Origin: Candidatus Latescibacterota bacterium
Lineage (GTDB): Bacteria; JAAXHH01
Direction: 5' to 3'
Assembly (NCBI GenBank): GCA_022822725.1
Contig: JAJEAN010000007.1
Coordinates: forward strand, 2,367,045-2,431,044
Length of the DNA stretch: 64,000 nucleotides
Shown: positions 42,283-62,981 of the stretch, piece by piece
How the letters are laid out: each line of letters opens with the position of its first letter
Position numbering within the stretch: position 1 is the stretch's first letter
Notes under the pieces: model-generated
Database searches by the model: none
Told to the model about the DNA's origin: nothing
The model's input: the letters and a program-made list of their open reading frames with translations, nothing else
Position numbers and translations under genes: made by a program

Positions 42283-42993
42283 ATGCGGTCCATTTTCGTC
42301 GGTATCGAATACGCCGGCAAGTCCACTCTGATCGATCACCTGGACGCCTACTACCAGAAACGGCGGCGCCGGACCCATCTCGACGATCACTTCACCATCC
42401 CGGACGCTTCCCTGAGTCCCGTTTCCCGGGCGCAGTATATCCACTATCCCGACGACGTAAAGGAACGCATGCAGCGGATGCAGCTTCACTACCACGTGGA
42501 GGTCATTCGTAACTACCCCCACACGCTGATCGCTGGCTGGCACATCGAGGAGAAGATCTACTGCGACGTATACGGCAGCGTGGAGGGGAATCCCTACTAT
42601 CCCAACTACGTCGAACACAACCAGCGGCACTACGAGGTGATGGTCCTGGAAGCCCGGCTGCCCGACGTCGTGCTGATCCACCTCACCGCCGACGACGAGG
42701 CGATCCGCGAGCGCATGCGCACGGACCCCCACGAGTACCAGATCATCGACGAGAAGGACATTCCGGATCTCAAGAAACGCTTCGAGGACGAGGTCGACCA
42801 ATCGCTCCTGACGCGCAACGGCCACCTGGTCACGCTGGATACGACCGAAAAGTCACCCGCGGAGTCGTTGGACGAATTGCTGCTGAAGACCGATCCGATG
42901 GTGACCGACGGCGAACTGGCCATGCGGGCCATGCCGGTTCCCGACGGGGATTACGAGGTGCATTACGAGAACGGTGTAAGGAAGATGGTGTAG
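42283..42993 (+). CDS. P-loop kinase-like protein
   Basis: The 236-residue protein has a Walker A motif FVGIEYAGKST (about 5-15), a mid-chain HTLIAGWHIEEKIYCD and VVLIHLTADDEAIRERMRTD (about 126-145), which looks like strand 4 and the lid region of thymidylate-kinase-type nucleotide kinases. The C-terminal 40 residues are acidic. The substrate is unknown. AAGGAG lies 6 nt before the ATG. It follows the creatininase gene in the same direction. A G9CAG5 stretch begins just at its stop. Confidence 0.75.
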   Translation: MRSIFVGIEYAGKSTLIDHLDAYYQKRRRRTHLDDHFTIPDASLSPVSRAQYIHYPDDVKERMQRMQLHYHVEVIRNYPHTLIAGWHIEEKIYCDVYGSVEGNPYYPNYVEHNQRHYEVMVLEARLPDVVLIHLTADDEAIRERMRTDPHEYQIIDEKDIPDLKKRFEDEVDQSLLTRNGHLVTLDTTEKSPAESLDELLLKTDPMVTDGELAMRAMPVPDGDYEVHYENGVRKMV

Positions 42994-43061
42994 GGGGGGG
43001 GCAGGGGGAAGTGATAGGTTTTTAAGGTTTTTTGGATTTTTTTTAAGTCCATAACGAGATC

Positions 43062-43532
43062 GTGGGTTTCAATTCCGACGATTTAATTATGGACCAATTG
43101 ATTTTGATCATAGGGTCGGTATCGACTGCATGTCTCGTTCTCCTGGCAGTGGTTTCGCTGGCGTGGAAGTTTGCTCATAGGAATCAGGATGAGTTGAAGG
43201 CACTTCGTGAATCCGTTGATGAAATAAAAAGCGTACTGTTTGAAATCAACGGCAGGATAGTGACTGTTAATTTGACCGAAGAAGCCAGAACGCTTGTTTT
43301 GAAAGCCTTACATACCGGAGATGGACTGATACTGACCGGGCAGACGTTCTCGGGATGGTTCGTTCAGACTGGTCATTGGAATTCAGGTTTTATCAGAAGC
43401 AGCGAACAAAACGTTTGGAAAGATGCGTTGGAATCTCTCTGCCTGAACGAGCTTGTGGCGCTATCAGGTATCCAGCTGTATAGGCTGACATCCAAAGGCC
43501 GGCAGTTGGCTGATTCACTCAAATCCGAATAG
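43062..43532 (+). CDS. Uncharacterised membrane-anchored protein with coiled coil and winged-helix-like C-terminus
   Basis: The longest frame starts GTG at 43062; an ATG at 43089 (MDQLILIIGSVST) is more likely because the membrane helix (about 14-34) then sits at the N-terminus. A short coiled coil follows (RNQDELKALRESVDEIKSVLFEING). The C-terminal 80 residues include LNELVALSGIQLYRLTSKGRQLADSL, which resembles the end of a winged-helix fold. No family recognised. The region is visibly less G+C-rich and uses codons such as TTA, AGA and ATA more than neighbours, a hint of transfer. Confidence 0.6.
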   Translation: MGFNSDDLIMDQLILIIGSVSTACLVLLAVVSLAWKFAHRNQDELKALRESVDEIKSVLFEINGRIVTVNLTEEARTLVLKALHTGDGLILTGQTFSGWFVQTGHWNSGFIRSSEQNVWKDALESLCLNELVALSGIQLYRLTSKGRQLADSLKSE

Positions 43533-43556
43533 TACCTGTCCCTGAGGAACCGAACG

Positions 43557-43817
43557 TTGAGCGAGATATCCCGTGATAACTGGACCTTCGGCGCACAGAT
43601 CGTAACTGCCGTAGGGATGTTCATTGTAGCCCTGGGCATCTTGTTCATCGCGACGCTTACTTATCTGGATCGGGAAGATCAGGGATTCAGGAACGAGATT
43701 CGGACCGACCTTACAGAAATCCGTACCGCGATGAGAGACATGAACAATCGTCTCGACAACATCAACACCCGTCTCGGAAGGGTCGAGGGGTATCTGAGGG
43801 TATCCGGTGAAGAGTAG
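43557..43817 (+). CDS. Small membrane protein with C-terminal coiled coil
   Basis: The TTG start at 43557 has GAGGAA 8 nt upstream. The 86-residue product has one membrane helix (IVTAVGMFIVALGILFIATLTYL) and then heptad-like DLTEIRTAMRDMNNRLDNINTRLGRVEGYL, a coiled coil. The layout matches the preceding protein (helix then coiled coil), and the two genes are 24 bp apart, so a membrane-bound complex is possible (inference). Family unknown. Confidence 0.6.
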   Translation: MSEISRDNWTFGAQIVTAVGMFIVALGILFIATLTYLDREDQGFRNEIRTDLTEIRTAMRDMNNRLDNINTRLGRVEGYLRVSGEE

Positions 43818-43828
43818 CGCGGTTTAAT

Positions 43829-44968
43829 CTACGCTGCCAGGCCCTTGCCCTGGGCTTCCTTGATGCAATCGGCGAGGATGGGCACGCCTTCGCGGATATC
43901 CTCGATCGTGGGGAACCCAAATGCGATGCGGAGGTACGGGATGTCCTCGTTCGTCGCGCTGAAGGACTGACCGAGACTGAAGAAAACCCCCCGTCCGGCC
44001 GCCAGTTGCAGCGCTTTCCGCGTGTCCGTCGCCGCGGGGATCCTGACCCATACGAACATGCCGCCGGGCGGATCCGTCCACCACACCTCCTCGCCCAGAT
44101 CGCTGAAGTGGGTCGCCAGCGATTCGACCAGGGCGTCCTTGCGCGCCTTCATGACCTCGTTCACTTCGCGGATGTGGTCCCAGAGATGAACGCCCAGGTA
44201 TTCGGCCACGATCATGCTCGCCAGCGCGTTGGTCCCGCCGTCCATCTTGTTCGCCATGATCCGCTGCTGCAGCGCCTCCGGCGCGATGAAGTAGCCCTGC
44301 CGGACGCCCGGCCCGAGGATCTTGGAGAAAGAGCCGACGTACACGACCCGGTCGTCTTCGTCCAGGTGGTACAGGTTCGGCGGCACTGGATCGGACTGGA
44401 ACACGAGATCGGCGTAACAATGGTCGTCCACGACCAGCGTGTCGAACGCCCTGGCCAGTTCGAGGAGGCGCTTGCGACGCTCCAGGGGCAGGATGGAGCC
44501 CGTGGGATTGTGATGGGTGGGTATGGTGTAGATGAACTTCGGCGGCGTGCCCGCGTCGACGAGTCTTTTGAGCACGGTCTCCAGTGCATCCGGCACCAGG
44601 CCCTGGTCATCGATGGGCGCCGGCGCGATGCGCACCTGCCGGCTCCGGAACACGCTCAGTGAGCCGCCGTAGGAAAAGGACTCCGTGACGATCGTATCGC
44701 CTGGCGCTGCGAAGGCGTCCGTGGTCAACTGCAGCGCCTGCATGGATCCGGACGTCAGCACGATCTCCTCCAGGGGCACTGCCCGTCCCGTACCGCGTTC
44801 GTAACGCTCCGCCGCGATGGCCCGCAAGGGTTCGAAACCGCGGCCGTCCGGGTAATTCACCAGTTCCGCGCCTCGGGCCCTTATGACTTTCGCGGCGGCC
44901 TCTGCCAGCGCGTCCGAAGGAAAGGAAAGCGGATCGGGCCTTCCCGCGCCGAAATTGATCTCACGCAT
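43829..44968 (-). CDS. PLP-dependent aminotransferase, class I/II (MocR/2-aminoadipate type without DNA-binding domain)
   Basis: The 379-residue fold-type-I protein has NYPDGRGFEPLRAIAAERYERG, TSGSMQALQLTTDAF, YTIPTHHNPTGSILP, VVDDHCYADL and the Schiff-base lysine in GSFSKILGPGVRQGY (about 215-229). It transaminates an amino acid, probably aminoadipate-like or aromatic, with 2-oxoglutarate; the exact substrate is unknown. AGGAG lies upstream of the ATG. It is divergent from the ABC transporter, and both promoters face each other in the gap 44969-45173. Confidence 0.9.
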   Translation of the reverse strand: MREINFGAGRPDPLSFPSDALAEAAAKVIRARGAELVNYPDGRGFEPLRAIAAERYERGTGRAVPLEEIVLTSGSMQALQLTTDAFAAPGDTIVTESFSYGGSLSVFRSRQVRIAPAPIDDQGLVPDALETVLKRLVDAGTPPKFIYTIPTHHNPTGSILPLERRKRLLELARAFDTLVVDDHCYADLVFQSDPVPPNLYHLDEDDRVVYVGSFSKILGPGVRQGYFIAPEALQQRIMANKMDGGTNALASMIVAEYLGVHLWDHIREVNEVMKARKDALVESLATHFSDLGEEVWWTDPPGGMFVWVRIPAATDTRKALQLAAGRGVFFSLGQSFSATNEDIPYLRIAFGFPTIEDIREGVPILADCIKEAQGKGLAA

Positions 44969-49365: not shown

Positions 49366-50916
49366 CTAGTCGTCGTCCTCATCGTCGTCGTCTTCATCGT
49401 CGTCGTCATCATCGTCGTCATTTTCATCGTCATCGTCGTCTTCATCGCCCTCATCGTCCTCGTCACCCTCATCGCCCTCATCGTCTTCGTCGCCTTCGTC
49501 GTTCTCATCGCCCTCATCGTCTTCGTCGCCTTCGTCGTTCTCATCGCCCTCGTCGTCCTCATCACCTTCGTCGTCTTCATCGCCCTCGTCGTCCTCATCG
49601 TCTTCATCGCCTTCGTCGTCTTCGTCACCCTCATCGTCTTCGTCGCCTTCATCGTCCTCATCGCCCTCGTCGTTCTCATCGCCTTCGTCGTCTTCATCGC
49701 CCTCGTCGTTCTCATCACCTTCGTCGTCTTCGTCGTCCTCATCGCCCTCATCGTCTTCATCACCTTCGTCGTCCTCGTCGCCCTCATCGTTCTCATCGCC
49801 TTCGTCGCCTTCGTCGCCGTCTACGTCTTCGTCACCTTCATCGCCTTCGTCGCCTTCGTCGTTCTCATCGTCCTCGTCGCCCTCATCGTCTTCGTCGCCC
49901 TCATCGTCCTCATCACCTTCGTCATTCTCATCACCCTCGTCGTTCTCATCGTCCTCGTCGCCCTCATCGCCTTCGTCGCCTTCGTCACCCTCGTCACCGT
50001 CTACGTCTTCGTCGCCCTCGTCACCTTCGTCTCCCTCGTCACCCTCATCGTCTTCATCACCCTCATCGTCCTCATCGCCTTCGTCGTTCTCATCGCCCTC
50101 ATCGTCCTCGTCGCCCTCATCGTCCTCATCGCCTTCGTCGTCCTCGTCGTCCTCGTCGTTCTCGTCCCCTTCGTCCCCTTCGTCGTCCTCATCGTCCTCG
50201 TCACCCTCATTGCCCTCGTCGTCTACGCCTTCGTCGCCTTCGTCCCCTTCGTCGTCCTCGTCCCCTTCATCCCCTTCGTCATCCTCGTCCCCTTCGTCAT
50301 CCTCGTCCCCTTCGTCGCCTTCGTCGTCCTCGTTACCTTCGTCGTTCTCGTCGCCTTCGTCGTCCTCGTCACCGTCTACGCCATCGTCTTCGTCGCCCTC
50401 GTCACCCTCGTCACCTTCGTCGCCCTCGTCTCCTTCGTCGTCCTCGTCACCCTCGTCGCCTTCGTCGCCTTCGTCGTTCTCGTCGTCTTCGTCACCCTCG
50501 TTACCGTCGTTCGCATACCTTTCCAGATTCACGATCGAGGACGGGTCTGACGGTTCGACATCATCCCCGACTCCGTCACCGCTTGTGCCTTGATCAGCAT
50601 CCGTGTCACCTGCGCTACCGTCACCCGCGCTACCGTCACCCGCGCTACCATCCCCTTCTCCATTCCCCTCGCCGTCCCCACTGCCGCTTGTGCCTTGACC
50701 GTCATTCGTGTCACTTGCGTCGTCATCTCCTTCTCCGTCCCCGCCGCCGTCTCCGTTTCCGCTCTGGCCAGTCCCTACCTGGTTGATGGTCTGGGATGTA
50801 TTTGAAACCAGCGGATTCTGACCGCTATCGCCTCTGCAACTCATGATCATCATCAAGGCGGCAACTGCGATCTGCAGGTTTCTTACCCAGTTGTATACGA
50901 TACGGTAAACGGCCAT
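49366..50916 (-). CDS. Extremely acidic Gly/Asp/Glu repeat lipoprotein
   Basis: The ATG at 50916 (MAVYRIVYNWVRNLQIAV) has AGAGGTGA 6 nt upstream. The 516-residue product opens with a signal peptide ending in a lipobox-like IMSC. A Gly/Ser/Asp linker follows with three GDGSA units (about 90-105), then a short ordinary segment (DPSSIVNLERYAN). From about residue 137 to the end it uses almost only D, E and G with scattered N and V, mostly hexapeptides of EGDEDD type, ending in a D-only run. I know no family for it. If exported and lipid-anchored it would be a polyanion on the membrane surface, plausibly binding divalent cations (inference). The opposite strand is open too, but its Arg/His/Pro frame has no start context. 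Confidence 0.7.
   Translation of the reverse strand: MAVYRIVYNWVRNLQIAVAALMMIMSCRGDSGQNPLVSNTSQTINQVGTGQSGNGDGGGDGEGDDDASDTNDGQGTSGSGDGEGNGEGDGSAGDGSAGDGSAGDTDADQGTSGDGVGDDVEPSDPSSIVNLERYANDGNEGDEDDENDEGDEGDEGDEDDEGDEGDEGDEGDEGDEDDGVDGDEDDEGDENDEGNEDDEGDEGDEDDEGDEDDEGDEGDEDDEGDEGDEGVDDEGNEGDEDDEDDEGDEGDENDEDDEDDEGDEDDEGDEDDEGDENDEGDEDDEGDEDDEGDEGDEGDEGDEDVDGDEGDEGDEGDEGDEDDENDEGDENDEGDEDDEGDEDDEGDEDDENDEGDEGDEGDEDVDGDEGDEGDENDEGDEDDEGDEDDEGDEDDEDDEGDENDEGDEDDEGDENDEGDEDDEGDEDDEGDEDDEGDEDDEDDEGDEDDEGDEDDEGDENDEGDEDDEGDENDEGDEDDEGDEGDEDDEGDEDDDDDENDDDDDDDDEDDDDEDDD
49369..50508. repeat. About 1.1 kb of imperfect GAN-GAN-GGN repeats (18-bp and 9-bp periods)
   Basis: On the plus strand the tract is built of TCGTCNTCNTCNCC-type units with C/T wobble at third positions. 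The third-position variation keeps the amino acids D/E/G, so the reading frame on the minus strand appears selected rather than neutral. Confidence 0.9.
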
Positions 50917-51318
50917 GGGATCACCTCTTGCCACTCATCAATCGGCGAGGTGAGAAAGGGAGGTATTGGGAAGCAAGATTACATGCGGATTACTTTAAAA
51001 CTAACACATTTATGTATGGATAAAAGGGAAATTCCTGGAAAACGTCTCAAAGTCGGCTTGTTGTTCGAAGAATGCTCGAAAACCAAGGCGTTTTCATGCA
51101 ATCCGACGGACATGAGTGTGGAAGACCGTTTGCCCCGGGGTGTGGAAAACCCTCTGCACCGGGATGTGGGATCGCGCTGGATTCGATACAAGGGGACGAA
51201 TGCCAATGCCCGGACTTTGACGACTTGACGAACAGTCAGGTCAATTCGACGAACAAGCGGGGCTATTGGAGAAACAACTGGGGCTGTTGGATAATGCGGG
51301 CCTTCTACGCCTGGGGTC
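50917..51318. other. 402-bp intergenic region without a supported gene
   Basis: Lower G+C than its surroundings. It holds the upstream sequence of the acidic lipoprotein gene and short imperfect repeats: GTGTGGAAGACC and GTGTGGAAAACC near 51118-51150, and GGGGCTATTGGAGAAACAAC and GGGGCTGTTGG near 51258-51292. Frames crossing it on either strand lack ribosome sites and protein-like composition. Confidence 0.6.
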
Positions 51319-56599: not shown

Positions 56600-57526
56600 T
56601 CACCCCGCCGCCCTGAATACCTCGAACCGACGGTCCAGCCGGTCCCGGTCAGGGTAGTCCCGCGATCGGGAAGGTAGATGTAATTCCGAACCATTCAGCT
56701 GCTTGAGCGCCTTGAGCATGGGACCGTCTTCCTGGTCCAGCAGTCGGTCGGATACGTGCAGCCGGTAGTCGGGATCGATACCGATCAGGTGTGCGTCAAA
56801 GGCCGCGTGATGGATCTTGGACAGGGCCAGTCCGTTCGGTACAACGGGTTGTCCCAGTGCCTCGTCTCCATCGGCAATGATGTGGGCGGCGTCCAGCAGT
56901 TGTGTTTCCGGCAGGCCGGTAATGGCACAGCGGCGGCCGTAGGCATATAGGACCGCTTCTCGAAAGGTAGCCTGGTGCAGGCGTTCCTTTACCATGCGCA
57001 GCGCATACCGGCGCTCGGTCGCGTTGCCTGGCGCTGTAAGACCTTCCTGATACGGGATTCCGAAGGTGAGCGTAGACTTCAGGGCGAATCCATCCCACCC
57101 GGATATGTAGGTGGGAATGACCGACTGATAACGGCCGGGAGACACGCCGAGAAAGTAGATCACGGGAACCTGATTCTCCCAGGCCTCCTTTAGCCACCGA
57201 TTGTCCGCCGCTTCCGGGTCCTTTCCCATGAACGCATAGTCCACGGTTTCCTCGCCATCGAAGATCTGGCGATGGACCTGCCGCTGGTCGTCGTACCAAA
57301 TCCTGCCGCCCGGCCTGGGGAACACAGTCCTGATCGAAAGTAGGTAGCGCATCTGCCGAGGCTTGAAGATCCCACGTTGCGGATTGACCAGGGGAATGCG
57401 TTCCCCTTCGAATATGAACCCCGGACCCAGTTCGACCCTGGTCAGGTGGCCGTGGGCCTCGCTCAATCGCTGCACGTGATCGAAGGCGGCCATCCGCATC
57501 CTGGTATCGATATCGTCAAGTTGCAT
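56600..57526 (-). CDS. HNH endonuclease (HNH_2 type), second gene of a pair
   Basis: In the 308-residue protein the C-terminal third is an HNH_2 nuclease: RRCAITGL (about 199-205), LDAAHIIADGDE with His215, then NGLALSKIHHAAFD with Asn231 and His239/240. The N-terminal 170 residues contain GIFKPRQMRYLLSIRTV and YIPGWDG-like segments (here YISGWDG) common to a group of predicted restriction HNH proteins; this part may read DNA. It starts 9 nt after the upstream HNH gene stop (stop 57536). Probable target: modified or foreign DNA (inference from family). Confidence 0.82.
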   Translation of the reverse strand: MQLDDIDTRMRMAAFDHVQRLSEAHGHLTRVELGPGFIFEGERIPLVNPQRGIFKPRQMRYLLSIRTVFPRPGGRIWYDDQRQVHRQIFDGEETVDYAFMGKDPEAADNRWLKEAWENQVPVIYFLGVSPGRYQSVIPTYISGWDGFALKSTLTFGIPYQEGLTAPGNATERRYALRMVKERLHQATFREAVLYAYGRRCAITGLPETQLLDAAHIIADGDEALGQPVVPNGLALSKIHHAAFDAHLIGIDPDYRLHVSDRLLDQEDGPMLKALKQLNGSELHLPSRSRDYPDRDRLDRRFEVFRAAG

Positions 57527-57535
57527 GGCGGATCA

Positions 57536-58498
57536 TCACCCCCGGTAAATCTTCTCGTTGTGCCAGGACAGCACCTCGGCGTCCGGCCGGTCTGCTACCT
57601 TACTGGGAACGACGATCTGTTTCCCGTGCAGTGCATAGTAGTCCCGACCGTTCTCGAACTCCTCGCGGACCCGCCCGCTGACCTCGAAGTTCAATTCCGG
57701 GGTCACCGTTACATATCCCGAATCGAACAGTCCATGTATATCCCGCCTGAGCAGCAGTCCGTTCGGGGCCTCGTGGATGCCCCCTTCGCTATACGGACGA
57801 ATGTGTGCCGCGTCGAGGGCCGGCAGCGTCCGCTCGCGGGTAACCGCGCAGCGTCTGTCATAAAGGTCGGTTACAAGCGCTCTGAAAGCACCTTGACCGA
57901 GGCGCGGTTTTACCAACTGCGGTTTGCCAAACAGGGCTTCCCCGGCCGGCAGACCGGAGATTTCGGAGACGACGCCTTCAGTATCAGCGGGCATACTCGT
58001 TGCCTGTCGGAATACCAATCGGTCATTGACCTCATCCCACAGTGCCCGTCCTTCTGCATCGTTGGTGCTGAACGTCTTTAACGACACGATATTGGGCGAC
58101 CAGGACGACGGGACCTTTATGAATTCGGACTCATCGAAGAAGAACGGCTGGGTCAGGATCCGGCAACCTATCCTGAAATCGCTCATGTCGTTCGGGTCGG
58201 CGCTTCGGTAACGCGAGATACGATCGCGCATTTCCCGAAGTGTCCTGGCGCCGTTCGCGTCACCGAACGCTTCCCAGGCCAGGGAACAGGGCAGTTCATT
58301 GGCATAAGCGAAAACGCCGCCGCCAACGATCATGTTGTAAGGGGCATGCAGCTTGAACAGGAACAGTTCACCAGGACGAAGCGCCTTGAAGTTCCTCGGG
58401 GAAGGCGCCCAGAAGTTGACCTCGTCCAGATGTGGCGCACTCCGGAGGGTCTTAAACCAGTCACCATCGGTTACGGCAACGACCAGCTTGATGTCCAA
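57536..58498 (-). CDS. HNH endonuclease with N-terminal EVE/PUA-like domain
   Basis: The TTG start at 58498 has AGGAG 8 nt upstream. The 320-residue protein has an N-terminal module (about 1-165) with DEVNFWAPSPRNFKALRPGELFLFKLH and IVGGGVFA, the strand pattern of PUA/EVE-like folds that bind modified bases. The HNH_2 nuclease follows at about 205-265: DRRCAVT, DAAHIRPYSEGG (His232), then NGLLLRRDIHGLFD (Asn246, His255). A related HNH gene follows 9 nt later, so the two form an operon, perhaps a modification-dependent restriction pair (inference). Confidence 0.85.
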   Translation of the reverse strand: MDIKLVVAVTDGDWFKTLRSAPHLDEVNFWAPSPRNFKALRPGELFLFKLHAPYNMIVGGGVFAYANELPCSLAWEAFGDANGARTLREMRDRISRYRSADPNDMSDFRIGCRILTQPFFFDESEFIKVPSSWSPNIVSLKTFSTNDAEGRALWDEVNDRLVFRQATSMPADTEGVVSEISGLPAGEALFGKPQLVKPRLGQGAFRALVTDLYDRRCAVTRERTLPALDAAHIRPYSEGGIHEAPNGLLLRRDIHGLFDSGYVTVTPELNFEVSGRVREEFENGRDYYALHGKQIVVPSKVADRPDAEVLSWHNEKIYRG

Positions 58499-59118: not shown

Positions 59119-60570
59119 ATGCAACCCATCGCACTGGGATCGCAACGTGAACTTTTTGTAGATCCCTACCTGATCGACAGCCTTGAAGGCGCCCGGCTGC
59201 ACCTTTACGAACCCGTCCGGAAGGAGATGGTCTTTCGCGTTATTGAACCCCTGGAGAACGCCTGCACGGGGTGCTACAACCTGGTTCAGGCCGACGGTAA
59301 GATTATGGTGTACTACCGCGGCTATCATCCCACGACCAAGCACGAGGATCTGCCCGAGGGTTGGGCGCAGACGCAAACGACGAACCTGCTGGTCAGCGAG
59401 GACGGCATCCACTTCGAGCGGCCCAGCCTTGGGCTGGTGGAGGCGGAGGGTTCAAAGGACAATAACATCCTCATCCGGGGCTCACAGGCGCACAACTTCT
59501 GCGTCTTCCTGGACGGCAATCCGTCCGCGCCGCCCGAACAGCGTTTCAAGGCCGTCGGGGGGGAAGGGCACAACAGGCTCTTCGGCTTCGCATCCCCGGA
59601 CGGGCTGACCTGGAAACCGGTTCAGGAGGGTCCTTTGGCGATCACGGGCGCTTTCGACTCGGTGAACGTGCCATTGTGGGACGATTACGCGGGCTGCTAC
59701 CGCATCTTCAGCCGGTATTTCGAGCTGGACGAGGACGGCGAGCGCATCCGCGCCATTCAGAGCTGTACCTCGGACGACTTCATCCACTGGACCACGCCCG
59801 AATACCACGTGTACGGCGAAGGCGTCCCGCTTGAGCACTTCTATACCAACGCCACCACGCCATGTCCCGGCGCGGAGCACATCCTGCTTTCCTTCCCCAT
59901 GCGGTTCGTACCGGAGCGGACGAAGGACATCGAAGGCATGGATTACCCGGGCGGAGGCGTGTCCGACGCGGTGTTCATGTCGAGCCGGGACGGGGTCCAC
60001 TGGGACCGTTCGTTCATGGACGCCTGGCTGCGCCCCGGACCGGAAAAGCGCAATTGGACCCACCGCAACCAGACGCCGGCCGCGGGGATCATTCCCACGG
60101 CGCCGGACGAATGGTCGATGTACGTCGCTGAACACTATGGATGGGATACCAACGGCGTGCGGCGGGTGACGGTCCGCCCCCACGGCTTCGCGTCGGTACG
60201 GGCGGGTTACCACGGCGGCGAGCTGCTGACCAAACCCCTGACCTTCTCCGGATCGACGCTGTTCATCAACTACGCGACGTCGGCTGTGGGCAGCGTGTCC
60301 GTGGAAATCCAGGACGCGGAGGGACGGCCCCTGGACGGATTCGCCGCGGGGGATATGGACCCGATGTTCGGCGACGATCTTGACGTCCCGGTCGCGTGGC
60401 GGGGGAGCGGTGCCCAGGGCGGTGGCTTGGGTGCCCAGGGCGGTGGCTCGGGTGGCCTGGCCGGCCTGTCCGACCTGTCCGACCTGTCCCGCCTAAACGG
60501 GTCGCCGGTCCGCCTGCGCTTCGTGCTGAAGGACGCAGACCTGTTCTCGATCCGGTTCGGGGATGCCTGA
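59119..60570 (+). CDS. Glycoside-hydrolase-like five-bladed propeller protein (GH32/43/68 superfamily-like)
   Basis: The 483-residue protein begins MQPIALGSQRELFVDPYLIDS, a start common to planctomycete and related predicted glycosidases. Blades show repeated pairs such as YYRGYH, LLVSEDGIHFERPSLGL, FGFASPDGLTWKPVQEG, SCTSDDFIHWT and FMSSRDGVHWDRSF. A C-terminal beta-sandwich (FSGSTLFINYATSAVGSVSVEIQDAEG) is interrupted by a Gly-rich and LSD-rich insertion (about 432-458) from tandem repeats. No signal peptide. Catalytic acids cannot be assigned with confidence. AAAGGAAA precedes the ATG, and a good terminator follows. Confidence 0.75.
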   Translation: MQPIALGSQRELFVDPYLIDSLEGARLHLYEPVRKEMVFRVIEPLENACTGCYNLVQADGKIMVYYRGYHPTTKHEDLPEGWAQTQTTNLLVSEDGIHFERPSLGLVEAEGSKDNNILIRGSQAHNFCVFLDGNPSAPPEQRFKAVGGEGHNRLFGFASPDGLTWKPVQEGPLAITGAFDSVNVPLWDDYAGCYRIFSRYFELDEDGERIRAIQSCTSDDFIHWTTPEYHVYGEGVPLEHFYTNATTPCPGAEHILLSFPMRFVPERTKDIEGMDYPGGGVSDAVFMSSRDGVHWDRSFMDAWLRPGPEKRNWTHRNQTPAAGIIPTAPDEWSMYVAEHYGWDTNGVRRVTVRPHGFASVRAGYHGGELLTKPLTFSGSTLFINYATSAVGSVSVEIQDAEGRPLDGFAAGDMDPMFGDDLDVPVAWRGSGAQGGGLGAQGGGSGGLAGLSDLSDLSRLNGSPVRLRFVLKDADLFSIRFGDA

Positions 60571-60588
60571 CTGACTGGCTCGTGCAGT

Positions 60589-60632
60589 ATCCCGGTAGAC
60601 TAAATATGTCAACCGGGATTGTTATCTTTTTT
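60589..60632 (+). terminator. Rho-independent terminator after the GH-like gene
   Basis: Stem ATCCCGGT (60589-60596) pairs with ACCGGGAT (60612-60619) across a 15-nt loop; a T6 run at 60627-60632 follows 7 nt later. The clearest intrinsic terminator in the window. A second hairpin (AAGAACAA at 60652-60659 with TTGTTCTT at 60670-60677) lies just after. Confidence 0.75.
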
Positions 60633-60779
60633 AAGGAGTAATGACAAATAAAAGAACAATGGTGGCGATTTGTTCTTGTGTATTTCTGAGGCTACACAAC
60701 GAGGATTAGAACTAGAGGGAATCGCAAAATTGTCTGGAGTGTCTATGAAAATACGATCTAGTTAATTTTGTCAACGTCC

Positions 60780-61535
60780 TCAACTATTTACTTTGTTATC
60801 GGGAGGTTTCAAAACGGTATTTGTTAGTACATTCGCGAGAGTCTTAGGCTCTGTGTGTTTAAATATTCTCTGAACCTTAGAATCAAAAATACGGGCAGAA
60901 ACGATTTCCTTCTCGGGTATTACAACTGCGAAATCTCGCATAGTAAGATTTCGCTCATTTAACATTGATCTGTAGTTTTCACCGTACAATACACTGTATT
61001 TTGTGTCAATAACCAACTCAAGTGTGTCCTCTTTACGGTGTCCACTTAGTAAGGGTCGGATAGTTACATCGTGACCATCAAGGGCACCGATTCCAGTCTC
61101 CAATGGAGCTCCGATGTAAACCTTCTTGTTACGAAGTGTTATCTCTGCAAATTTTCTCCTTCTGGTACAGTCGTACAACAGAATCTCCATGAAGTTCCCA
61201 CTGGTTTTAGCAGCCATATATTCAGCTTTTTGCCTCGATATAAACAAATTCAGTGTCTTAGCTGCGAGGTAGCTTATAACAAAGGTAAACACAATATCAA
61301 TTTGAAACGATATTGGGACATGTTGCTTCCAAAAACCACTTACATCATAAATGTACGTGTTGATGGATGTTAGAATCAAAAGTCGAGTAAGAACATATAT
61401 AACCAGCCCTGTTATAGCTGAAAGAAACAGAACATGATAACCAGACTGACGTGCTATCTCGTATCGGTTCTTATGGCTCACCCTTAAATACAAATACCCA
61501 CACAGGGCTGGCAATATAATTAGTTCGAGACTCAT
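60780..61535 (-). CDS. Uncharacterised three-helix membrane protein with cytosolic beta-rich domain
   Basis: The 251-residue protein has hydrophobic segments at about 3-17, 33-56 and 74-97. A basic loop and a soluble domain follow with FAEITLRNKKVYIGAPLE, VTIRPLLSGHRKEDTLELVIDTKYSVLY and RDFAVVIPEKEIVSARIF. The pattern of a short strand with NKKVYIG resembles the small beta-barrel at the cytosolic end of some predicted membrane sensors (such as DUF6338-type proteins), but I cannot assign a family. The ATG overlaps the stop of a 56-codon gene (ATGA). Base composition is clearly more AT-rich than neighbours, suggesting recent acquisition. Confidence 0.7.
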   Translation of the reverse strand: MSLELIILPALCGYLYLRVSHKNRYEIARQSGYHVLFLSAITGLVIYVLTRLLILTSINTYIYDVSGFWKQHVPISFQIDIVFTFVISYLAAKTLNLFISRQKAEYMAAKTSGNFMEILLYDCTRRRKFAEITLRNKKVYIGAPLETGIGALDGHDVTIRPLLSGHRKEDTLELVIDTKYSVLYGENYRSMLNERNLTMRDFAVVIPEKEIVSARIFDSKVQRIFKHTEPKTLANVLTNTVLKPPDNKVNS

Positions 61536-61702
61536 CCTTCGTTCGTTGATTGATCCTGTTTAGGCAGTTCAATCATCTCGTCGATCTCCCTAATCTCTTT
61601 CTTAATCTCAGGAAGCTCGAAGTAAGCGTCCGCATCGACACTAAATCCACCATTTTTCCCGACTGTGATCTCGGGGACATCTTCCCATTTCTCATCTGGC
61701 AT
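61532..61702 (-). CDS. Small acidic protein, first gene of a two-gene operon
   Basis: This gene encodes 56 residues from the ATG at 61702, with GAGGT 5 nt upstream. The product begins MPDEKWEDVPEITVGKNGG and ends in a charged helix with EIKKEIREIDEMIELPK. It is acidic overall with no membrane helix. The stop (61534-61532) overlaps the start of the downstream membrane-protein gene by 4 nt, so the pair is probably translated together. Family unknown; an accessory or regulatory subunit of the membrane protein is a guess from coupling. Confidence 0.6.
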   Translation of the reverse strand: MPDEKWEDVPEITVGKNGGFSVDADAYFELPEIKKEIREIDEMIELPKQDQSTNEG

Positions 61703-62108
61703 TTGTACCTCGATTCACATTGGGGATTACCTATAATTATTGGGGGTATCGGGGAGCCATTTAGGGAGTATGTTTCTAAATTACCTTACCAGATACTTAG
61801 AGACAATAGTAAAATACCCACTTTCCGATCTGAACCCCGTACGGGGTTCAGATTTCATATTGAGACATAGTGTTATCGTTGACTGAAGGTTGGCATAAAC
61901 CCAGTAAACTCGATTCGACTTCGTCTTGTGACAAACAGCCAGCGTTCACTTTGATCGGATCATGTAGCTCAGGACTACAATGGTCGTTACACTGACTAGG
62001 CGTGTTTACACCGGTTGCTCGATTGCAAGCGTTCTCTCCATATTGTGTGAGTGTTAAATACTGCCCAGATTCAGATATGAATGAGACTACGCCGGATTCA
62101 CCGATATC
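61703..62108. other. 406-bp AT-richer intergenic region without a supported gene
   Basis: It contains the upstream region of the two-gene membrane operon and, at 61828-61853, a 26-bp perfect palindrome. No frame here has a ribosome site plus protein-like composition. A TATAAT on the plus strand (61732-61737) lacks a -35. Confidence 0.55.
61828..61853. repeat. 26-bp perfect palindrome
   Basis: The half ATCTGAACCCCGT (61828-61840) is followed with no spacer by its exact reverse complement ACGGGGTTCAGAT (61841-61853). Symmetry breaks at the next base on each side. It could be a terminator stem, an operator or a recombination site. Confidence 0.9.
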
Positions 62109-62981
62109 CTAATCCGCCTGAATCGTTTTTCCACGGAGCTTTCGGTAGATCGCCGGGGACATGGAGACGGTGACGAGCAGGGCGAGGGCGATGCCCAGGT
62201 TGATCAGGGCCGAGGAGCGCAGGGCGGCGCGCGTCACCTCGTCAATTTCGGCGCCGGCCAGGTAGACCTGCATCAGCGACGCCGCGGTATATGCGTAGAT
62301 GAAGGTTCCCGGTGTGATCCCGATCATCGTCGCCATCGCGAAATGGAGCTTGCGTATACCGGAGAGTCCGGCGGCGAAGTTCAGCACGTTGAAGGGGATG
62401 ACCGGGATGAGCCGGAGCTGGAGCATATGCAGGAACCCCTTGTTCCGGAGCCGGCGGTTGATCCGGTCGATGGGCCCTTTAATGTAGCGGGATATGAAAT
62501 CCCGGCCCAGGTACCGGGCCAGGTCGAAGGCGAGGTTGGCGCCGATGTTCGCGCCGATCATTACGTACAGCGTGCCCTCCAGGGCGCCGAAGGTGAAACC
62601 CGCGAAGAAGGTCAGGATCACCATCGGCAAACCCAGCACGGTGAGCAGGACATAGACGCCGATAAACACCAGGGGCGCCCACCAGAATCCCTCGATCGAC
62701 TCGAAGAACCCCTCCATCACGACGGGCTGGAGATAGTTGCCCAGGGGCGTGAAGCTGTAGGCCAGAAAGCCGGAAAAGGCGATCGCGAGCAGGATGACCG
62801 GCTTGACGATCTGACGCTTCCGGCCGGTGGTCTCGACGGTGGCCTGGGCTGCGCCCTCGACTGCGCCTGCGTCTTCGCCAGCACCCTTGGCTGCGCTCTC
62901 AGCGGCGTCCTCGGCTGCGCCCTCTCCAGTCCGTTCGCCTGTTCCTTCGCCTGTACCTTCGCCGGGGCCTAACTGCGACAC
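62109..62981 (-). CDS. VTT-domain (TVP38/TMEM64, DedA-superfamily-like) membrane protein
   Basis: In the 290-residue protein the GTG start is followed by about 50 low-complexity residues (GTGEGTGERTGEGAAEDAAES). Five or so membrane helices follow with the VTT signature GLPMVILTFFAGFTFGALEGTLYVMIGANIGANLAFDLARYLGR (about 117-160) and RLIPVIPFNVLNFAAGLSGI (about 189-208). The reentrant-loop residues (Pro-Asn, Gly) of the DedA/VTT superfamily are present. Members act in lipid transport or flipping in membranes; the substrate is not predictable. A later start inside the low-complexity stretch cannot be ruled out. Confidence 0.87.
   Translation of the reverse strand: MSQLGPGEGTGEGTGERTGEGAAEDAAESAAKGAGEDAGAVEGAAQATVETTGRKRQIVKPVILLAIAFSGFLAYSFTPLGNYLQPVVMEGFFESIEGFWWAPLVFIGVYVLLTVLGLPMVILTFFAGFTFGALEGTLYVMIGANIGANLAFDLARYLGRDFISRYIKGPIDRINRRLRNKGFLHMLQLRLIPVIPFNVLNFAAGLSGIRKLHFAMATMIGITPGTFIYAYTAASLMQVYLAGAEIDEVTRAALRSSALINLGIALALLVTVSMSPAIYRKLRGKTIQAD

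Follow-up and report, generated by a model that had tools for sequence, protein, structure and literature searches.

In membrane effectors of the CBASS and Panoptes systems, such as Cap15 and 2TM-beta, a soluble beta domain comes after the membrane helices and a partner gene lies in the operon; in MscS-type channels, three membrane helices precede an Sm-like beta domain. In P2-like phages, the slot next to cos is a hotspot in which diverse anti-phage systems have been validated, with retron St85, old/tin and PARIS among the cargo; the hotspot also holds partition genes and a toxin, so that not all of its cargo is defensive (PMC9122126). The PHROGs collection lists two families, 3630 and 9843, separately and without a function.

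We analysed a two-gene operon located in a 64-kb stretch of DNA (64,000 nucleotides, hereafter the window) from a Candidatus Latescibacterota bacterium, which probably lives in association with sponges. Its membrane protein belongs to PHROG 3630, and 26 of the 53 small partners encoded by its relatives match PHROG 9843 (best E-value 2.4e-35); the pairing, the Sm-like fold and the members outside phages are not described in PHROGs. The pair resembles the CBASS/Panoptes effectors in its helices, beta domain and operon partner, whereas its beta domain is Sm-like and it has neither a PADLOC match nor a nucleotide-signal enzyme. That is, no nucleotide-signal synthase was found in the operon, the module being made up of two genes flanked by host genes that are adjacent in related genomes. 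With the MscS channels the membrane protein shares an arrangement in which three helices precede an Sm-like barrel, but it lacks the C-terminal cage domain and has an obligate small partner; no MscS Pfam model matched any of 55 family members, and no MscS structure was among the 50 best PDB matches. Relatives of the pair share the P2 slot between the replication/DinI and portal genes, whereas the pair is unrelated in sequence to any PADLOC system and the window copy lies outside a prophage. No description of the pair was found in the literature and libraries searched, and newer defence catalogues could hold one.

The operon and the inserted segment

Both genes are intact and lie at the positions given in the initial annotation, where the ATGA overlap and the ribosome binding site were likewise found exactly in the sequence. 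The features of the locus are as follows.

60571 to 62108, no strand assigned: AT-rich inserted segment, delimited by flanks that are adjacent in all 11 same-genus genomes
60589 to 60619, plus strand: 12-bp hairpin followed by a T-run, facing the convergent neighbour gene
60780 to 61535, minus strand: gene for the 251-aa membrane protein (open reading frame and match to the phrog_3630 profile)
61532 to 61535, minus strand: ATGA start/stop overlap of the small and the membrane gene (translational coupling)
61532 to 61702, minus strand: gene for the 56-aa small partner (beta-hairpin, then helix; pI 4.1)
61708 to 61711, minus strand: Shine-Dalgarno-like GAGG, 5 nt 5′ of the ATG of the small gene (CCTC on the plus strand)
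61828 to 61853, no strand assigned: palindrome of 26 bp without mismatches, located upstream of the pair, a possible operator or hairpin

The pair has a G+C content of 0.404, as against 0.633 in the window outside the insert, and among 923-bp stretches elsewhere in the window the lowest value was 0.489 (mean 0.632, SD 0.034), which bears out the AT-richer composition noted earlier; the comparison rests on the window and the relatives. The insert as a whole, of about 1.5 kb (G+C 0.41 versus 0.63), is missing at the same site from 11 of 11 same-genus relatives, in which the flanking genes (59119–60570, plus strand, and 62109–62981, minus strand) are direct neighbours separated by 53–180 bp, compared with 1538 bp in the window. 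Alignment to the empty sites ends near 60571 and 62101–62108; that is, homology breaks at the stop codon of the left gene and restarts just before the stop codon of the right gene. A related pair (36–38% identity) occurs at a different site in three other genomes of the genus, next to what we take, from the translations, to be a beta-lactamase-like and a peptidase-like gene. The pair is thus patchy within the genus, being present in four of 12 genomes at two sites, and its presence at this second site suggests that the genus probably acquired the module on two or more occasions. The membrane protein of the window grouped with the three same-genus copies in a maximum-likelihood tree (support 99/92), and the next nearest sequences were copies from Binatia and Acidobacteria, on long branches. 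In the window's bacterium the module is solitary, with no prophage around it. Comparison with related genomes and family members identifies the pair as a horizontally acquired, foreign two-gene module of prophage type.

The flanking motifs pointed out in the initial annotation fared differently. What had been called a strong terminator is the 12-bp hairpin at 60589–60619, which was absent from the list returned by a terminator scan; since its T-run is on the plus strand, it faces the neighbour gene and does not end the operon. The palindrome is present as a perfect 26-mer. It occurs a single time in its own genome and was found neither in the 11 same-genus genomes nor upstream of the pairs of relatives, and was therefore rejected as a part of the module. 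Neither RNA families nor tRNAs were detected in the 64-kb window.

Some other regions of the window were conspicuous. A second AT-rich dip at 42800–44000 (G+C 0.49–0.50), possibly another small foreign insertion, holds a gene (43062–43532, plus strand) whose 156-aa product has a single membrane helix at the N-terminus, its C-terminal portion being soluble. The extreme GC skew at 49–51 kb (-0.31 to -0.36) is due to a gene on the minus strand (49366–50934) for a 522-aa protein that consists mostly of GDEDDEGDE-type acidic repeats. Two minus-strand genes, 56600–57526 and 57536–58498, encode C-termini that by eye resemble HNH-type motifs (LDAAHI, ALDAAHIRPYSEGG) and are possibly restriction-like genes near the insert; the G+C content drops to 0.53 just beyond them.

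Predicted structure of the two proteins

The initial annotation had left both proteins without a family. The membrane protein can now be placed: it matched phrog_3630 with an E-value of 2e-26 (residues 5–230 on positions 5–253 of the 274-position profile) and relatives from P2-like phages with E-values of 2e-11 to 3e-6. Pfam, NCBIfam and PADLOC gave no significant match for the window proteins or 55 relatives; in particular, none of 55 members and neither window protein matched a known anti-phage system in PADLOC-DB 2.0.0. Some weak matches, to Cyt-b5, DUF6338, DUF2207 and KCTD16, were put down to chance. The one to DUF6338, a Pfam family of membrane proteins, concerned two of the 55 members at E = 0.0071, below significance for an assignment, and the one paper naming DUF6338 in the literature searched was unrelated.

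An AlphaFold model of the membrane protein, built with an alignment of 56 relatives (mean pLDDT 87.6), predicts a barrel of five strands in addition to three membrane helices and two linking helices, in agreement with the three-helix topology proposed earlier.

61479 to 61532, minus strand: membrane helix 1 (residues 2–19), with invariant G13
61365 to 61442, minus strand: membrane helix 2 (residues 32–57), with invariant G43 and preceded by a basic loop
61242 to 61313, minus strand: membrane helix 3 (residues 75–98)
60885 to 61193, minus strand: C-terminal Sm-like domain (helix 115–125 and strands to residue 217; AlphaFold, Foldseek)

A sequence search of the PDB with the membrane protein gave no significant match. 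Of the 50 best PDB matches in a Foldseek structure search, however, almost all were Sm/LSm proteins, with probabilities near 1.00, modest individual E-values of 0.005–0.05 and target TM-scores of about 0.4–0.64, and the target domain was covered well. As modelled, the C-terminal domain is of the Sm/LSm fold, with an N-terminal helix followed by a five-strand bent barrel. Apart from G13 in helix 1 and G43 in helix 2, the invariant residues cluster in this barrel (K138, Y140, P161, S164, G165, R167 and Y180 in the alignment of 56 relatives), and its conserved motifs are KVYVG and PxxSGxR. Over 55 relatives, the loop joining helices 1 and 2 has on average 3.0 K+R and 0.65 D+E, and the one joining helices 2 and 3 has 0.9 K+R and 1.2 D+E. 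The basic first loop is presumably cytoplasmic, and these charges put the barrel on the cytoplasmic side.

The model of the 56-aa protein (pLDDT 73.9) has short strands at residues 12–14 and 20–22 and a helix at 31–44, and the Foldseek matches obtained with it were uninformative. The protein is 28–30% identical to the partners in three of the collected loci (L006, L002 and L004). It did not match PHROG 9843 itself, and a profile of the small family built without it recovered it at E = 0.022 in a search of all ORFs of 125 loci, a marginal value. The family has no conserved stretch; what its members share is a beta-hairpin/helix motif and a conserved glycine, and the window pair displays both, with the small ORF directly upstream of the membrane gene. 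The acidity mentioned in the initial annotation is particular to the window copy (pI 4.1): over 53 partners the median pI is 9.6, and four lie below 6.

One reading of these models is that the Sm-like domains form a ring on the three-helix part, giving a minimal MscS-like pore that is shut or triggered by docking of the 55–75 aa partner. We regard it as rather doubtful; if true, it would amount to a class of membrane effector in phages that has not been described before.

Conservation and distribution of the pair

A single-protein genome scan found no relatives. Alignment-based scans identified 102 relatives in viral contigs, of which 80 were kept, and 32 in genome contigs, all of which were kept; the viral, genome, phage, plasmid and own-genome copies formed 54 groups at 90% identity. 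A gene-neighbourhood check revealed a small ORF of 53–100 aa within 38 nt upstream of the membrane gene in all 53 groups with readable upstream DNA, the remaining group (L009) being left out of the count as the end of the record cuts its upstream DNA. The two genes overlap or are separated by at most 8 nt in 38 of the 53. In the related phages Peduoviridae C5a, ST15-OXA48phi14.1 and SEN4/5, and in Pantoea and Vibrio megaplasmids, a gene of 58–80 aa lies directly upstream of the membrane gene. Furthermore, distances between the small proteins are correlated with those between the large ones (Mantel r 0.85, a value reached in 0 of 999 permutations). The unit proposed in the initial annotation is therefore conserved, and neither of the two observations that it had named as contrary was made, as each of the 53 non-redundant homologues with readable upstream DNA is accompanied by the small gene and all 11 relatives lack the insert at this site.

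The small-family profile detected 120 ORFs in the collected loci, of which 115 adjoin a membrane gene and five adjoin broken copies; outside these loci, small genes unaccompanied by a membrane gene may exist. Broken membrane genes next to an intact small gene were seen in L104, L107, L112, L116 and L123, and also in L154; intact membrane genes lacking the small gene were not seen among the relatives. Such a pattern is what a toxin-antitoxin or addiction pair could leave behind, in which the membrane protein would be toxic alone, the small protein would neutralise it and the pair would stabilise its carrier element. The small upstream gene, the translational coupling, the strict co-occurrence and the retention of the small gene beside broken membrane genes (in the first five of these loci and in Escherichia coli MIN9), with no reversed case, are in line with this explanation. 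However, the asymmetry in decay is weak because the large gene, being about four times longer, takes most chance hits, and we set aside as too weak the idea that decay strikes the toxin first. Moreover, no similarity of the pair proteins to known antitoxins was found. We consider an addiction pair unlikely.

In three sets of relatives, dN/dS was 0.03–0.22 for the small gene and 0.03–0.30 for the large gene. These ratios indicate purifying selection on both genes, including in the three same-genus genomes, and bear on whether the window copy is merely decaying foreign DNA with no function in its bacterium. Its AT-richness, solitary position without a surrounding prophage, and unconserved palindrome and flanks would suit such a relic. 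In contrast, both of its frames are intact, its ribosome site and coupling are present and every invariant residue of the membrane protein is kept, so that, with the selection acting in relatives, decay appears extremely improbable.

P2-type replication or DinI genes together with a portal gene surround the pair in 42 of 122 loci. In E. coli Tig228 it is the sole cargo between DinI and portal; in E. coli ATCC 11303 the same slot is occupied by retron St85, and in other E. coli strains by DUF262, DUF4145, ParA and unrecognised genes. A second, diverged subfamily of the pair is found in the P2 slot of E. coli 17MR471, beside ParA. In the P2-like phage ST15-OXA48phi14.1, a bSEFIR defence gene adjoins the pair. 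The relatives at these loci are located in the P2 hotspot; the window copy is not. Among 5426 E. coli genomes, the first subfamily is present in 52 (at ≥80% coverage) and the second in 16; among these 52 first-subfamily copies as listed, one (MIN9) carries an annotation as broken, with its small gene intact. E. coli CFT073 carries an intact pair of the second subfamily (NC_004431.1, 918325–919311), annotated as two hypothetical proteins. A 66-bp stretch just 3′ of the pair (L007:5833–5900) recurs in over 1000 E. coli genomes, frequently within the P2 hotspot and next to different cargo, and may represent a conserved element at the edge of the hotspot.

At other sites, some copies follow genes that include antitermination Q-like proteins (PHROGs), one follows a tape-measure gene (L014) and one lies between baseplate and tail-fibre genes (L011). 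Solitary copies between housekeeping genes occur in Pseudomonas, Nevskia and Paludibacterium, and solitary chromosomal copies are present in bacteria of several phyla. Judged from the loci collected, the pair is a widespread, unnamed family carried mostly by bacterial viruses. Copies at these other sites fit a defence function and would equally fit lysogenic-conversion or addiction genes. A role in lysogenic conversion or membrane physiology that does not have phages as its target, such as that of a membrane-bound regulator or an accessory to transport, would account for the varied prophage positions (among them those beside tape-measure and tail genes), the solitary chromosomal copies and the lack of matches in defence libraries; it seems quite unlikely all the same, as it has to contend with the recurrence of the pair in a P2 slot that holds mainly anti-phage systems and with its patchy presence in the genus.

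Possible function of the pair in temperate phages and their hosts

The P22 SieA-type exclusion proteins resemble the membrane protein in size and topology. Superinfection exclusion proteins such as P22 SieA are the topic of an earlier publication (PMC10883804). The pair could accordingly act by exclusion without cell death, with the inner-membrane protein stopping DNA injection by related phages and the small protein aiding its folding or localisation. Carriage by temperate phages at sites typical for extra genes expressed from the prophage, and an inner-membrane topology of three helices that keeps the large domain within the cell, are both compatible with exclusion; however, a conserved cytoplasmic Sm-like domain with invariant KVYVG and PxxSGxR motifs and an obligate soluble partner seem to exceed the needs of an injection-site plug, and solitary chromosomal copies occur in several phyla. 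Exclusion of this kind therefore appears somewhat unlikely.

The explanation that we favour, while giving it about an even chance, is that the pair is a prophage-derived anti-phage module, abortive or exclusion in type, that protects the host cell; it is favoured because the relatives sit in prophages and in the P2 hotspot. These positions likewise speak for the defence-type module raised in the initial annotation, with a putative anti-phage activity. Against defence count the absence of members from PADLOC-DB, the lack of a signal-producing enzyme beside the pair and the marginal family match of the window's small protein.

If the pair is such a defence module, coupled translation would yield the small cytoplasmic protein together with the three-helix inner-membrane protein and its cytoplasmic Sm-like domain, and the module would guard the cell and the resident prophage against other phages. 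The membrane protein would be the effector, self-assembling via its Sm-like domains, and could disturb the membrane or stop DNA entry once an invader is present; acting on the inner membrane, it might cause abortive depolarisation or an entry block. The small protein may serve as a subunit or gatekeeper whose beta-hairpin docks on the Sm-like domain, either keeping the effector inactive or supplying the trigger.

Two phage families that had been listed without function are here joined into a single obligate unit, whose carriers include temperate phages (P2-like ones and others), megaplasmids and chromosomes from several bacterial phyla, and one of its two subfamilies is carried by about 1% of complete E. 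coli genomes. Because it recurs in an anti-phage slot and combines membrane helices with an Sm-like domain in an unusual architecture, the pair offers a candidate for a new mechanism of defence or exclusion that is compact and open to direct testing.
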